In this document: one piece after another, positions 59,986 to 63,830 of the stretch | Layout of the letters: each line of letters opens with the position of its first letter | Numbering within the stretch: position 1 is the first letter of the stretch | Source: Entomomonas sp. E2T0 | GTDB lineage: Bacteria; Pseudomonadota; Gammaproteobacteria; Pseudomonadales; Pseudomonadaceae | Length of the DNA: 64,000 nucleotides | NCBI RefSeq assembly: GCF_025985425.1 | Contig: NZ_CP094972.1 | Span: 1,240,001-1,304,000, forward strand | Direction: 5' to 3' | Notes under the pieces: model-generated | What the model saw: only the letters and a program-made list of their open reading frames with translations | Told to the model about the DNA's origin: nothing | The model's database searches: none | Position numbers and translations under genes: made by a program

Positions 59986-59999
59986 ATAGCAACAGCTAT
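59986..59999. repeat. Short repeat matching the palindromic element's right end
   Basis: ATAGCAACAGCTAT, a 5-bp hairpin with an AACA loop, is identical to the last 14 nt of the element at 38286-38389. It sits between the convergent stops of fkpB and the TatD gene. Confidence 0.4.
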
Positions 60000-60793
60000 A
60001 GGTTGTTAAGATTCCAATTAAATAGTTCACAGGCATTTTGAGTAGACGCTTCAGCAAGAAGCTCTGCTGAAATGCCTTTTATTTTGGCCAGTTGTTGGCA
60101 TATTTCAGGTAAAAACTCAGGGCTATTACGATTACCTAGTTGAGTAACAGGCGAGAGGTCAGGCGCATCAGTTTCTAATACAATAGCATCGAGTGGTAAT
60201 TGTTCTAATACACGATGCATACGATGAGCTTGGGGATAAGTTCCTGCACCACCTAAGCCAATCTTAAAACCTAGTTTGATATATTCTTTAGCTTCTTCAT
60301 AGCTACCACTAAAGGCATGAGCAATACCTCCTAGTTTAAATTTTAGCTCTTTTAAAATTTTAATAGTATCAGCATGAGCTCGTCTAACATGGAGTAATAC
60401 AGGCTTTTGGAATTCTGTAGCAATCTCTAATTGGAGTTTAAATAGCTGTTGCTGCTGTTCTTGATCGTAGTTATCAATATAGTAATCTAAACCAATTTCG
60501 CCAATGGCACAAAGTTTTGCAGAGTATTCAGGTTGTCTAAAAAGTTGTGTTAATAGCTCAAGTGTTTGAGGTACTTGTGACGCTGATGGGATATACATAG
60601 GGTGTATACCACAGGCTACATAAAGTGAGGGATGTTGCTGTGCTAATTGAATAGTGTGTTGCCATTCACTAGCAAACACTCCCACCATAATTTGTTTTAT
60701 AACACCTAATTTAATACTCCGTTTTAAGACTTGGTCACGATCACTATTGAAGTTATCGCAACCAAGGTGATTATGGGTATCGATTAGATACAT
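59996..60793 (-). CDS. TatD family hydrolase (YjjV-like)
   Basis: A 265-residue metal-dependent hydrolase with a TIM-barrel fold. The metal ligands and catalytic residues are all present: DTHNHLGCD, CGIHPMY, GEIGLDYY, LHVRRAH, HAFSGSYEEA and ETDAPDLSP. TatD proteins are 3'-5' DNA exonucleases in E. coli; the YjjV subgroup is less studied. It starts 3 nt after the degenerate helicase gene ends, suggesting co-transcription with it. Confidence 0.92.
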   Translation of the reverse strand: MYLIDTHNHLGCDNFNSDRDQVLKRSIKLGVIKQIMVGVFASEWQHTIQLAQQHPSLYVACGIHPMYIPSASQVPQTLELLTQLFRQPEYSAKLCAIGEIGLDYYIDNYDQEQQQQLFKLQLEIATEFQKPVLLHVRRAHADTIKILKELKFKLGGIAHAFSGSYEEAKEYIKLGFKIGLGGAGTYPQAHRMHRVLEQLPLDAIVLETDAPDLSPVTQLGNRNSPEFLPEICQQLAKIKGISAELLAEASTQNACELFNWNLNNL

Positions 60794-60796
60794 TGC

Positions 60797-62737
60797 CTAT
60801 TCATCGTCTGTATTCTTACGTGAAAGCAACATAGGTTTTTCACTCTTAGGAATATGGCGATTTGGCATACTATCTAATTGTTCGATAGTAGGTAGTCGAT
60901 CTATCCTTGAGTGTTTACGATGAATAATGGCTGGTGTCGTTGTTGATGAGCGTCTTTGTTGTGGCTCTTTAAGCTCACTTGGAGGCGTTGCAGTCATTAC
61001 TTCTCTTTTTCTATATGGTGTAGAAGAAGGAGTAGTTATCGTAGTATTGTTGGTACGGTTATTACGTCTATATAAAGAGTTTCTTGGGCGACGTTGCTCA
61101 GTTGCTTGAGCATTAGTAGTTGTTGCTTTAGGCTTTGTTGTTTTAGCTCGTTGCGGGCGGCTACTAGCAGTTGTAGTAGTACTTGCTGGTGCTGTAGTAG
61201 ATGATGCGGTAGCTTTTGTAAAACGCTTAGTACGTGCATTTTTAGCTTTGTCTTGATAAGGACTTATATAATCTACACTGTTACCAAAGTTATCGTACTC
61301 ATCATCACGGAATTCATCCTCTGGACGATCTGGTGGCATATCATCTAATGATACAGTACTTACAGGCGCATTTCTTCTATGCTTATTGTAAGGATTACGT
61401 GTTGTTTTAGTTTTGGTTTTGCCAAAGTTAGATTTACTAGCACGACTGGCTCTTTTCTCTGCCAAGTCATCATCCATATCTTCAGCAGGACTCTCAATTA
61501 CTTCATCCGCTATAGTCGTTTTTCTTTTACGTGATTTTCTACCTACAGCAGGATGGCGGAAAATACGTCTAAAACGATCAGGATTTTCTTCGTTTGTTTC
61601 TGCATCAAACACAAAATCACTCATATCTCCATCAGCAATCTTTTGTTTGATAAAGTCTTCAATCACTAATAATAACTTTTCTTCTTCTGGACTAACAAAT
61701 GAGATAGCTTCGCCAACACTATCAATGGTATTGATGCGTTGTATATAGTCATCTTCAATATAAGGTAGGTCAAAGTTAATAATGCAGGGTAATTGATTTA
61801 TTTCTAAACTTTCGGTAGTAACATCGGTAGCAATTAAAATTTGTACTAAATTTTCTTTAAAATCGATGAGTGATTTATTACGTGCATTTTGGGTTTTATT
61901 ACTATGGATTGTAGCTGAGTTAATGCCCTTCTTGCTGAGATAGTTTGAGAGGCGACTAGCTCCATATTTAGTACGAGTAAATATCAGTATTTGTGGCCAC
62001 TGGTATTTATTTATTAAATGAACAAGTAAAGCTGCTTTTTGACGTGTTGGAATATAAAAAACGCTTTGTTTAATATGCTCTATAGATGGAGTGATATTAA
62101 TTTCAATACGCTCAGGATTTTTAAGTAAAAAATGAGCCAATACAATAACATCATCAGTAAAATTGGTAGCGTAGAGTAAGTTTTGACGTTCGACTGGTAA
62201 TAAGTCAATAACTTGTTTAGTGGTTGCTATGGAGTTTTCATTAGTAAGCAGTTCAGCTTCATCCAACACAAAAATTTCTACTGCTGATAAATCAACAGCC
62301 TGTTGTTCAATAAGTTCAACTAAACGAGTGGGGGAGGCTACTAATATATCAACCCCATGGCTAAGTATTTTAGTTTGCAGAGCACTATTAGTGCTATCTA
62401 ATACGCAGCCAACTGTCATAGAGAAATCAAACGAATAGGCTTTAAAATATTCTGCAATCTGAATAGCTTCGTCTGATGAAGCCACTAAAATAAGTACTTT
62501 TGGCTGTTTTGAAGTAGGCGCTTTATGCTCTACATTTCCTTTTGGGAATAATTTTTCAATAATGGGGAGTACAAAACTACCGACTTTTCCTGTCTCTGCC
62601 GATGGTGTGGCAACCATTAAATCGTTATTTTGTAAAATAACGGGGATAGCCTGTTCTTGTAGAGTAGTGGGTGTTTCGTATAATGTTTTAGTTGTTTCTG
62701 ATAAAAGCTCGGAAAGTCCTAGCGATGTAAAGGACAT
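60797..62737 (-). CDS. RhlE-derived DEAD-box protein with eroded ATPase motifs (predicted pseudo-helicase)
   Basis: A 646-residue protein that follows RhlE from its first residues (MSFTSLGLSELL) through both RecA-like lobes, including FTRTKYGASRLSNYL. Nearly every catalytic motif is changed: motif I AQTGTGKT reads PSAETGKV, PTREL reads ASSDE, DEAD reads DEAE, SAT reads ATN, the ARGLD of motif V reads TESLE, and motif VI HRIGRTGRA reads QRINTIDS with two arginines lost. SPTRL (for TPGRL) survives. From about residue 375 the tail is basic, Thr/Ala/Asn/Arg-rich and probably disordered. The frame is intact over 1.9 kb, so it is not simply a pseudogene. ATP hydrolysis is very unlikely; an RNA-binding or scaffold role is inferred. 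Confidence 0.82.
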   Translation of the reverse strand: MSFTSLGLSELLSETTKTLYETPTTLQEQAIPVILQNNDLMVATPSAETGKVGSFVLPIIEKLFPKGNVEHKAPTSKQPKVLILVASSDEAIQIAEYFKAYSFDFSMTVGCVLDSTNSALQTKILSHGVDILVASPTRLVELIEQQAVDLSAVEIFVLDEAELLTNENSIATTKQVIDLLPVERQNLLYATNFTDDVIVLAHFLLKNPERIEINITPSIEHIKQSVFYIPTRQKAALLVHLINKYQWPQILIFTRTKYGASRLSNYLSKKGINSATIHSNKTQNARNKSLIDFKENLVQILIATDVTTESLEINQLPCIINFDLPYIEDDYIQRINTIDSVGEAISFVSPEEEKLLLVIEDFIKQKIADGDMSDFVFDAETNEENPDRFRRIFRHPAVGRKSRKRKTTIADEVIESPAEDMDDDLAEKRASRASKSNFGKTKTKTTRNPYNKHRRNAPVSTVSLDDMPPDRPEDEFRDDEYDNFGNSVDYISPYQDKAKNARTKRFTKATASSTTAPASTTTTASSRPQRAKTTKPKATTTNAQATEQRRPRNSLYRRNNRTNNTTITTPSSTPYRKREVMTATPPSELKEPQQRRSSTTTPAIIHRKHSRIDRLPTIEQLDSMPNRHIPKSEKPMLLSRKNTDDE

Positions 62738-62972: not shown

Positions 62973-63824
62973 TTAAATTAAATTTTTCCATACTGCAAGA
63001 CTTGGTTCAGCCTGATTCAATGTATAAAAGTGCAATCCAGGAGCACCACCTGCTAATAACTGCTCACAGAGCTTGCTGATGGTTTCAGTACCAAATGATT
63101 GGATACTTTCAATATCATCTCCATAAGCTTCTAGCTGTTTTCTAATCCAGCGTGGTAGCTCTGCGCCACAGGCATCAGAGAAACGAGCTAGTTTGCTATA
63201 GTTAGTGATTGGCATAATACCCGGAATAATGGGTACATCTACGCCCATTTTTTGCACACGTTCTACAAAGTAAAAATAACAGTCTGCATTAAAGAAATAT
63301 TGGGTGATAGCGCTATTAGCCCCTGCTTTAATTTTATTAACAAAATGTTTTAAATCTTGTTCCATATTCAAAGCTTGAGGGTGTACTTCTGGGTAAGCAG
63401 CTACTTCAATATGAAAATGATCTGCTGTTTCTTCACGAATAAAACTAACGAGGTCAGATGCATAACGTAAATCACCTGCATCCATACCCATACCTGATGG
63501 TAAATCACCACGTAAAGCAACAATACGTTTTATGCCTACTTCTTGGTAACGTTTTAATAGGGTGCGTAATGATTCTTTAGAGTCACCCACACAAGATAAG
63601 TGAGGGGCTGTAGCGACTTGGGTAGTATTACTTAATTGTAATACCGTATCAAAGGTTCTATCTCTTGTTGAACCGCCTGCACCATAGGTGCAAGAAAAGA
63701 AAGCTGGTTTGCAAGTAGTGGTCAGTTGTTGTGCATGGTTTAAAAGTTTTTCCATTCCTACGTCTGTTTTTGTAGGAAAAAACTCAAAACTGAATAAAGG
63801 ATTTATCTTGTTCATTGTTATCAT
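62973..63824 (-). CDS. metF: 5,10-methylenetetrahydrofolate reductase
   Basis: FAD enzyme that makes methyl-THF for methionine synthesis. The 283-residue TIM barrel has the catalytic glutamate in FSFEFFPTKTD, TYGAGGSTRDRT, ALRGDLPSG, AGANSAITQYFFNAD and PGIMPITNYSKLARFS. The start at 63824 is chosen because an AGGAGGG site (63831-63837) is 6 nt away; the later ATG at 63815, favoured by alignment, would be 15 nt away. The ribosome-binding site is inside a perfect hairpin shared with the upstream ahcY end. ahcY-metF is a methyl-cycle operon. Confidence 0.96.
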   Translation of the reverse strand: MITMNKINPLFSFEFFPTKTDVGMEKLLNHAQQLTTTCKPAFFSCTYGAGGSTRDRTFDTVLQLSNTTQVATAPHLSCVGDSKESLRTLLKRYQEVGIKRIVALRGDLPSGMGMDAGDLRYASDLVSFIREETADHFHIEVAAYPEVHPQALNMEQDLKHFVNKIKAGANSAITQYFFNADCYFYFVERVQKMGVDVPIIPGIMPITNYSKLARFSDACGAELPRWIRKQLEAYGDDIESIQSFGTETISKLCEQLLAGGAPGLHFYTLNQAEPSLAVWKNLI

Positions 63825-63830
63825 CACAAA

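Follow-up and report, generated by a model that had tools for sequence, protein, structure and literature searches.

We argue that RhlE2 of the bacterial genus Entomomonas is a DEAD-box pseudohelicase: it has lost its motor and has probably been kept as an adaptor for RNase E and RNA (we would put the probability of this reading at roughly 0.6). The retained fold and two conserved motifs in the C-terminal tail suggest a passive adaptor for the RNA-processing machinery rather than an enzyme. That catalysis is gone and that the protein serves as an adaptor are both inferences.

The gene lies in a window of 64,000 nucleotides from Entomomonas sp. E2T0 (positions 1240001-1304000 of the first contig, which has 3,315,933 bases; the genome totals 3,325,929 bases in 2 contigs). 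This strain was obtained from Zophobas morio larvae and has a chromosome of 3,315,933 bp, a plasmid of 9,996 bp, and a GC content of 35.9% (PMC9872594). Our genus sample is four genomes (G000-G003), one of which is a 77%-complete MAG. For comparison, we used all 32 sister-genus genomes from our search for relatives (18 genera, G004-G035), with one orthologue each. The features that we discuss are listed in Table 1.

Table 1. Features of the rhlE2 locus and of its protein product, in window coordinates.
Feature	Position	Strand	Basis
rhlE2 orthologue with degenerate helicase motifs, 646 aa	60797..62737 (including stop)	-	ORF and NF053710 match
metF, ancestral upstream neighbour of rhlE2	62973..63827	-	upstream on the same strand in sister and Entomomonas loci
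TatD-family nuclease gene, 3 nt downstream of rhlE2	59996..60793	-	adjacency only in Entomomonas
RecA-like lobe 1, residues 1-212 (Pfam DEAD at 24-188)	62102..62737	-	Pfam, AlphaFold2
RecA-like lobe 2, residues 213-385 (Pfam Helicase_C at 234-335)	61583..62101	-	Pfam, AlphaFold2
Q motif region, YETPTTLQEQ, Gln27 kept	62651..62680	-	alignment
Motif I (P-loop), degenerate: VATPSAETGKVGS vs canonical VAAQTGTGKTGG; one extra residue, Thr52 lost, Lys51 kept	62576..62614	-	
Motif Ia, lost: ASSDE vs PTREL	62468..62482	-	
GG motif, lost: LDSTN vs FGGVG	62387..62401	-	
Motif Ib: SPTRL vs CPGRL, Pro and Arg kept	62321..62335	-	
Motif II: DEAE vs DEAD	62252..62263	-	
Motif III, lost: ATN vs SAT	62162..62170	-	
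Motif V: ATDVTTESLEI vs ATDIAARGLDI	61799..61831	-	
Motif VI, lost: QRINTIDS vs HRIGRTGRAGR; 3 residues deleted, first Arg kept, three later Arg lost	61718..61741	-	
Basic tail, predicted disordered, residues 386-646	60800..61582	-	AlphaFold2 and composition
Tail box 1, PPDRPEDEFRDDEYDNFGNSVDYISPYQ, residues 468-495, common to canonical RhlE2	61253..61336	-	alignment
C-terminal box, IIHRKHSRIDRLPTIEQLDS..EKPMLLSRK, residues 604-641, common to canonical RhlE2	60815..60928	-	alignment

The gene and its neighbours

The reading frame runs on the minus strand from an ATG at 62737 down to 60797 and has no internal stops, so the 646-codon open frame of an earlier, sequence-only reading of this DNA stands. 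The ATG is preceded by AGGA in all four genomes of the genus. We rejected the plus-strand reading of the region, which has many stops. We also rejected a pseudogene or a sequencing error: the frame is open and conserved in four assemblies, and the assembly of E2T0 has 474x average coverage. A scan of the locus gave 8 promoter-like sites (12.5 expected) and 3 terminator-like sites (1.9 expected).

Upstream, metF is found on the same strand as rhlE2 in all four Entomomonas loci and in 26 of the 32 sister-genus loci (within the flanks that we fetched); it is not always the immediate neighbour. Downstream, a tatD gene adjoins rhlE2 in all four Entomomonas loci. The junction is a 3-nt gap in E2T0 (60794-60796), which is the spacing that had been reported, and a 3-nt gap, a 1-nt overlap, or a 5-nt gap in the other three genomes (L010-L012). 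Such a tight junction in all four genomes suggests co-transcription, which would be new to Entomomonas. A special meaning for this neighbour did not hold up, as no tatD was found in the fetched flanks of the 32 sister-genus loci (two of these, L019 and L034, have almost no downstream DNA). Given that the adjacency was seen only in Entomomonas and that the E2T0 genome has two further TatD-family genes above the Pfam cut-off, we do not take it as evidence for TatD as a functional partner.

Descent from RhlE2

Two Pfam models score above their cut-offs on the protein, DEAD with 69.8 bits and Helicase_C with 70.9 bits. The protein's best NCBIfam model is RhlE2 (NF053710), with 551.9 bits across residues 1-642, which is under the curated cut-off of 925; the RhlE1 model gives 270.0 bits. 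The protein is an RhlE2 orthologue by descent that lies outside the curated NF053710 family, a model that we applied to the E2T0 protein. In a FastTree phylogeny of the core, 36 sequences make up the RhlE2 clade (support 0.873), which excludes the 9 sequences of second and outgroup RhlE proteins, and the Entomomonas sequences form a clade of their own inside it (support 1.0). (L078, whose open frame was wrongly chosen, was left out of the tree, and L082, which we had taken to be a second RhlE, groups with DeaD.) The tree and the synteny with metF reject acquisition from elsewhere, and the tree and the model scores (270.0 vs 551.9 bits) reject descent from the second RhlE, RhlE1. By descent the gene is rhlE2, and it still occupies the ancestral position close to metF. 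The Entomomonas stem is long, at 0.87 substitutions per site, and the root-to-tip distance is about 1.2, as compared to a mean of 0.33 for canonical sequences.

All four genomes of the genus carry a degenerate copy with an open frame, and the other three proteins are 92, 71, and 64% identical to that of E2T0. We found no close relative of this copy elsewhere in the Pseudomonadaceae: in a search of 398 genomes of the family with a profile of the four proteins (395 matched at 1e-60), the genus scored at least 1234 bits and all others scored at most 513 bits. Scores of this kind do not single out an independent loss, and the motifs themselves were read in the 32 orthologues.

Degeneration of the helicase motifs

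When the family was aligned and the motifs were mapped, as the sequence-only reading had proposed, the sister genera proved canonical and Entomomonas degenerate throughout. AAQTGTGKT, PTRELA, FGGVG, DEAD, SAT, and ARGLD are present in 32/32 sister orthologues, and HRIGRTGRAGR is present in 31/32 (the exception has HRIGRTGRSGR). (L005-L008, which are PF00270 matches in the E2T0 genome, had no frame that matched the Entomomonas protein at 1e-10 and were left out of the motif table.) In contrast, motifs I, Ia, II, III, V, and VI, which an active DEAD-box protein has intact, are all altered in 4/4 Entomomonas proteins. The motif changes listed earlier for this RhlE-type protein were exact on re-reading (the PSAETGKV that was quoted for motif I is part of VATPSAETGKVGS), and the GG motif and motif Ib have changed too.

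Within the genus, the losses of motifs are common to all four members, and only the insertion in the P-loop is limited to three. All four lack Thr52, both the serine and the threonine of SAT, and the last three arginines of HRIGRTGRAGR (one of these arginines by deletion). In DEAD-box proteins, the threonine of motif I binds magnesium and the arginines of motif VI act as fingers. By sequence, then, these are helicase homologues without the catalytic residues. Because Thr52, SAT, the three motif VI arginines, the ARG of motif V, PTREL, and GG are lost and the P-loop is restructured, both ATP hydrolysis and the unwinding of duplexes would be gone, and the earlier claim that ATP hydrolysis is abolished is very likely correct. 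On the other hand, Gln27, Lys51, Asp159-Glu160 (motif II), and Arg334 (the first arginine of motif VI) are kept in 4/4, so nucleotide may still be bound.

In G003 (L012), motif I reads PTGTGKI, which is a nearly normal P-loop; the inserted residue is in the other three members of the genus. This P-loop is possibly an intermediate state. Within the genus, G003 branches off first, so the loss of Thr52 and of motif VI probably came before the change in the shape of the P-loop.

The fold is retained in the predicted structure. The sequence-only reading had proposed a structure prediction, and AlphaFold2 (with 25 sequences) gives a two-lobed DEAD-box core with confidence: the means of 10-residue blocks are 64-91 over residues 1-380, with a mean pLDDT of about 84. 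The tail is mostly below 50, and the overall pLDDT is 64.3 with a pTM of 0.44. The top matches from Foldseek are DEAD-box proteins, namely DbpA (7pli, E = 2.7e-31), CshA, and Hera, with DDX6 and Vasa lower down. Normalised by the length of the query, the TM-scores are modest, at 0.30-0.46, which is expected because the tail is disordered and the orientation of the lobes is free.

An intact predicted fold with several residues of the ATP site in place is also what would be seen if the protein were a residual helicase that still unwinds RNA with a non-canonical ATP site. We find this scarcely credible, as the serine and threonine of motif III and the three lost arginines of motif VI are invariant in 32/32 orthologues.

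Selection on a dead motor

The earlier reading held that selection seems to maintain the gene, and it named stops or frameshifts in relatives and a neutral dN/dS as outcomes that would count against it. The frames are open in 4/4 genomes, and dN/dS (omega) for the whole protein is 0.078 (bootstrap 95% interval 0.055-0.109), so the protein has been retained by selection. This estimate is for G000 and G002 (dS = 0.60), the one pair of species out of six in which dS is unsaturated; in the remaining five, dS is at least 1.67. For the same pair, omega is 0.051 (0.029-0.077) for the core and 0.117 (0.071-0.190) for the tail, and within the core it is 0.072 for lobe 1 and 0.029 for lobe 2. As yardsticks, omega is 0.048 for deaD, 0.034 for metF, and 0.111 for tatD. 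At this distance, the constraint on the dead core nearly matches that on DeaD, a working helicase in these genomes (0.051 vs 0.048). Over longer distances the protein evolves faster than DeaD does: it is 71 and 64% identical to its counterparts in G001 and G003, versus 87 and 85% for DeaD.

Could this be a decaying gene that is on its way to being lost from a host-associated lineage? Entomomonas is a genus of the insect gut with complete genomes of 3.2-3.3 Mb, the stem branch is long, and the middle of the tail evolves quickly (omega 0.18 between G000 and G002, and up to 0.39 in saturated pairs). But when we simulated neutral evolution from the E2T0 gene, a mean of 16 stops (minimum 5, 200 runs) had accumulated at a branch length of 0.3 substitutions per site and a mean of 27 (minimum 14, 200 runs) at 0.9. 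Four open frames are far from what chance would leave, omega is about 0.08, and residues 466-500 have no amino-acid changes between G000 and G002 despite a pS of 0.62. The evidence is strongly against decay for the period since the genus radiated, and we consider this explanation very improbable.

The constraint on the core has nevertheless changed in kind. We defined 85 motif positions ourselves, from the known DEAD-box motifs. Across the 32 canonical orthologues, 77/85 motif positions (91%) are invariant, versus 132/300 (44%) of the other core positions (p = 1e-15). Across the four Entomomonas proteins, this excess is absent: 48/85 (56%) versus 171/300 (57%), p = 1.0. The excess is seen in controls of the same size, with 78/85 versus 160/300 for four divergent canonical RhlE2 proteins and 81/85 versus 238/300 for DeaD from the same four genus genomes, and 0 of 200 random canonical quartets lacked it. 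The extra constraint on the motifs for ATP and RNA has thus gone, and the ordinary constraint on the core remains. We use this comparison in place of the claim that losses concentrate in the motifs, which was weak: 32/77 versus 41/132 by simple identity (p = 0.13), 22/77 versus 19/132 by BLOSUM62 <= 0 (p = 0.018), and 12/77 versus 10/132 by BLOSUM62 < 0 (p = 0.10).

The same comparison bears on whether the protein might be an RNA clamp that is switched by ATP, that is, one that binds nucleotide and RNA with very slow hydrolysis or none. Such a clamp would account for the retention of Gln27, Lys51, Asp159-Glu160, and Arg334 in 4/4 and for the nearly normal P-loop of G003. However, its motif positions would hardly be expected to go without extra constraint, Thr52 is lost in 4/4, and 3/4 have an extra residue in the P-loop. 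Motifs Ia, GG, V, and VI, which DEAD-box proteins require for the closed RNA-bound state, have changed as well. Overall, a clamp seems quite unlikely.

The C-terminal tail

The tail had been described as long, basic, and rich in Thr, Arg, and Asn, and its 261 residues (386-646) do include 55 K+R, 33 D+E, and 74 T+S+N. Two boxes within it are common to Entomomonas and canonical RhlE2. DNFGN is found in 4/4 Entomomonas and 29/32 canonical proteins; E[KR]PALL is found in 29/32 canonical proteins and reads EKPMLL in 4/4 Entomomonas proteins. Within the genus, identity to the E2T0 protein is 0.93-1.00 for box 1 and 0.84-0.97 for the C-terminal box. (Three canonical RhlE2 proteins from genera g19 and g5, L062, L063, and L064, lack DNFGN, and two of them are short, at 485 and 492 aa. 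This is the opposite dissociation: the motor is kept and tail box 1 is lost.)

Entomomonas and canonical proteins are 65% identical across box 1 and 50% across the C-terminal box, compared with 46% for the core and 15-16% for the rest of the tail (the averages for the middle of the tail and the C-terminal box are from 28/32 canonical sequences). So box 1 has been protected more than the motor has, and the C-terminal box about equally. As a ratio to core identity, box 1 is at 1.40 for Entomomonas-canonical pairs, versus a mean of 0.90 and a maximum of 1.15 for canonical pairs, and the C-terminal box is at 1.09 versus a canonical mean of 0.77; neither ratio has an equal-distance control, because canonical pairs are at least 68% identical in the core and the mixed pairs are 46% identical. 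The ratios are from 28 of the 29 canonical sequences with DNFGN (378 canonical pairs and 112 mixed pairs).

Box 1 also helps to weigh the idea that the dead motor was kept for a new partner that recognises the surface of the two lobes (a factor in ribosome assembly or stress, for example), with docking to RNase E being incidental. This would explain why the core is under stronger constraint than the tail (omega 0.051 vs 0.117), why new residues are fixed at former motif positions in all four species (QRINTI, DEAE, and SPTRL), and why the stem branch is so long (0.87). Yet the part that is better kept than the core is shared with canonical RhlE2, which points to an inherited partner, and we view a new partner as unlikely.

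Other RNA helicases and RNase E

The earlier reading had also suggested looking for a canonical rhlE, and we found none across the four genus genomes (one of them 77% complete). With RhlE1 as the query, the best matches in the genus are DeaD genes (43-45% identity), followed by RhlB, SrmB, and DbpA-like genes (names from G000), which leaves no hidden canonical RhlE among them. E2T0 has four DEAD-box genes with canonical motifs, although motif II of one of them, L004, reads DETD. In NCBIfam, the four match best to DbpA and RhlB, both above cut-off, and to PRK11634 and SrmB, both below; we take PRK11634 to be DeaD.

RNase E is present in 4/4 genus genomes (L089-L092), with an NDPR box (the PNPase site in P. 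aeruginosa) and an arginine-rich stretch. Its C-terminal half has 0-1 RE[ED]R repeats in the four Entomomonas genomes; RNase E of Pseudomonas has 8-23 REER repeats, according to PMC11964227. The RNA-binding part of the RNase E scaffold has changed in the same lineage in which rhlE2 degenerated.

In P. aeruginosa, as that paper reports, the C-terminal region of RhlE2 is necessary and sufficient for binding to RNase E, the association depends on RNA, RhlE2 is pulled down by RNase E that lacks its C-terminal domain (i.e., via the N-terminal half), and RhlE2 is not counted as a core component of the degradosome (PMC11964227). Because the association is RNA-dependent, it need not be direct docking. 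By analogy, the two tail boxes of the Entomomonas protein are putative docking sites for RNase E. A role as an RNA-binding scaffold or a partner of an RNase, which the sequence-only reading had raised, would fit both the retained boxes and this published link.

How might the adaptor work? In the simplest reading, Entomomonas would have kept the RNase E docking function and lost the motor. The lobes and the basic, disordered tail would still dock to RNase E (at its N-terminal half) and to RNA. With docking kept and the motor lost, the protein would work without ATP: as an adaptor or RNA chaperone it would hold RNA or partners at RNase E, and unwinding would be left to DeaD, RhlB, SrmB, and DbpA (where present).

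Relationship to known pseudohelicases

The closest relatives in kind are P. aeruginosa RhlE2 (PA0428) and its orthologues in the Pseudomonadaceae, which share the gene order with metF, the two-lobed core, and the tail boxes (we read these features from the 32 orthologues of the sister genera). The Entomomonas protein differs from them in motifs I, Ia, GG, II, III, V, and VI and in its score of 551.9 bits against the cut-off of 925.

The sequence-only reading supposed that such a protein would be of a new type, which is too strong: pseudohelicases have already been named, in the papers on Deinococcus radiodurans PriA (PMC4504706) and yeast Utp25 (PMC9539457). PriA is the best parallel. Like Entomomonas RhlE2, it is a bacterial helicase that lost its helicase motifs in one lineage and was retained; ATP hydrolysis and unwinding are absent, DNA binding is kept, and there is evidence for interaction with DnaB. 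However, PriA is a helicase of DNA replication restart rather than a DEAD-box RNA helicase, and it has been tested biochemically (PMC4504706). Utp25, as described in its paper, has a predicted two-lobed fold like that of DEAD-box proteins, vestigial motifs, a disordered extension, and a proposed non-catalytic role, but it is a eukaryotic ribosome-assembly factor without the DEAD sequence (PMC9539457). The match of the Entomomonas protein to the Pfam model UTP25 is weak (16.6 bits, cut-off 27). Similarly, the C-terminal helicase cassette of Brr2 keeps a helicase-like fold and is enzymatically inactive, but it is Ski2-like and eukaryotic and is the second cassette in a chain with an active one (PMC8220420). 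Among the matches listed in our search of the literature on pseudohelicases and inactive DEAD-box proteins, a search whose scope excludes most subscription literature, there was no bacterial RNA pseudohelicase. A single paper in it mentions both Entomomonas and a helicase, and by its title and abstract that paper concerns a cricket virus.

Implications

We would give even odds to a broader claim, in which bacteria can permanently strip a DEAD-box RNA helicase of catalysis and make it an adaptor of the degradosome. Entomomonas RhlE2 would then be the first bacterial RNA pseudohelicase, and what selection preserves in RhlE2 would be how its tail and fold dock to RNase E and RNA rather than its ability to unwind. 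Of the pseudohelicases named above, neither PriA nor Utp25 is a bacterial RNA helicase. With its motor lost and its fold and tail boxes kept, Entomomonas RhlE2 would be a natural separation-of-function experiment. Through it, the share of unwinding versus tethering and RNA binding in the helicases that are linked to RNase E would become directly testable.
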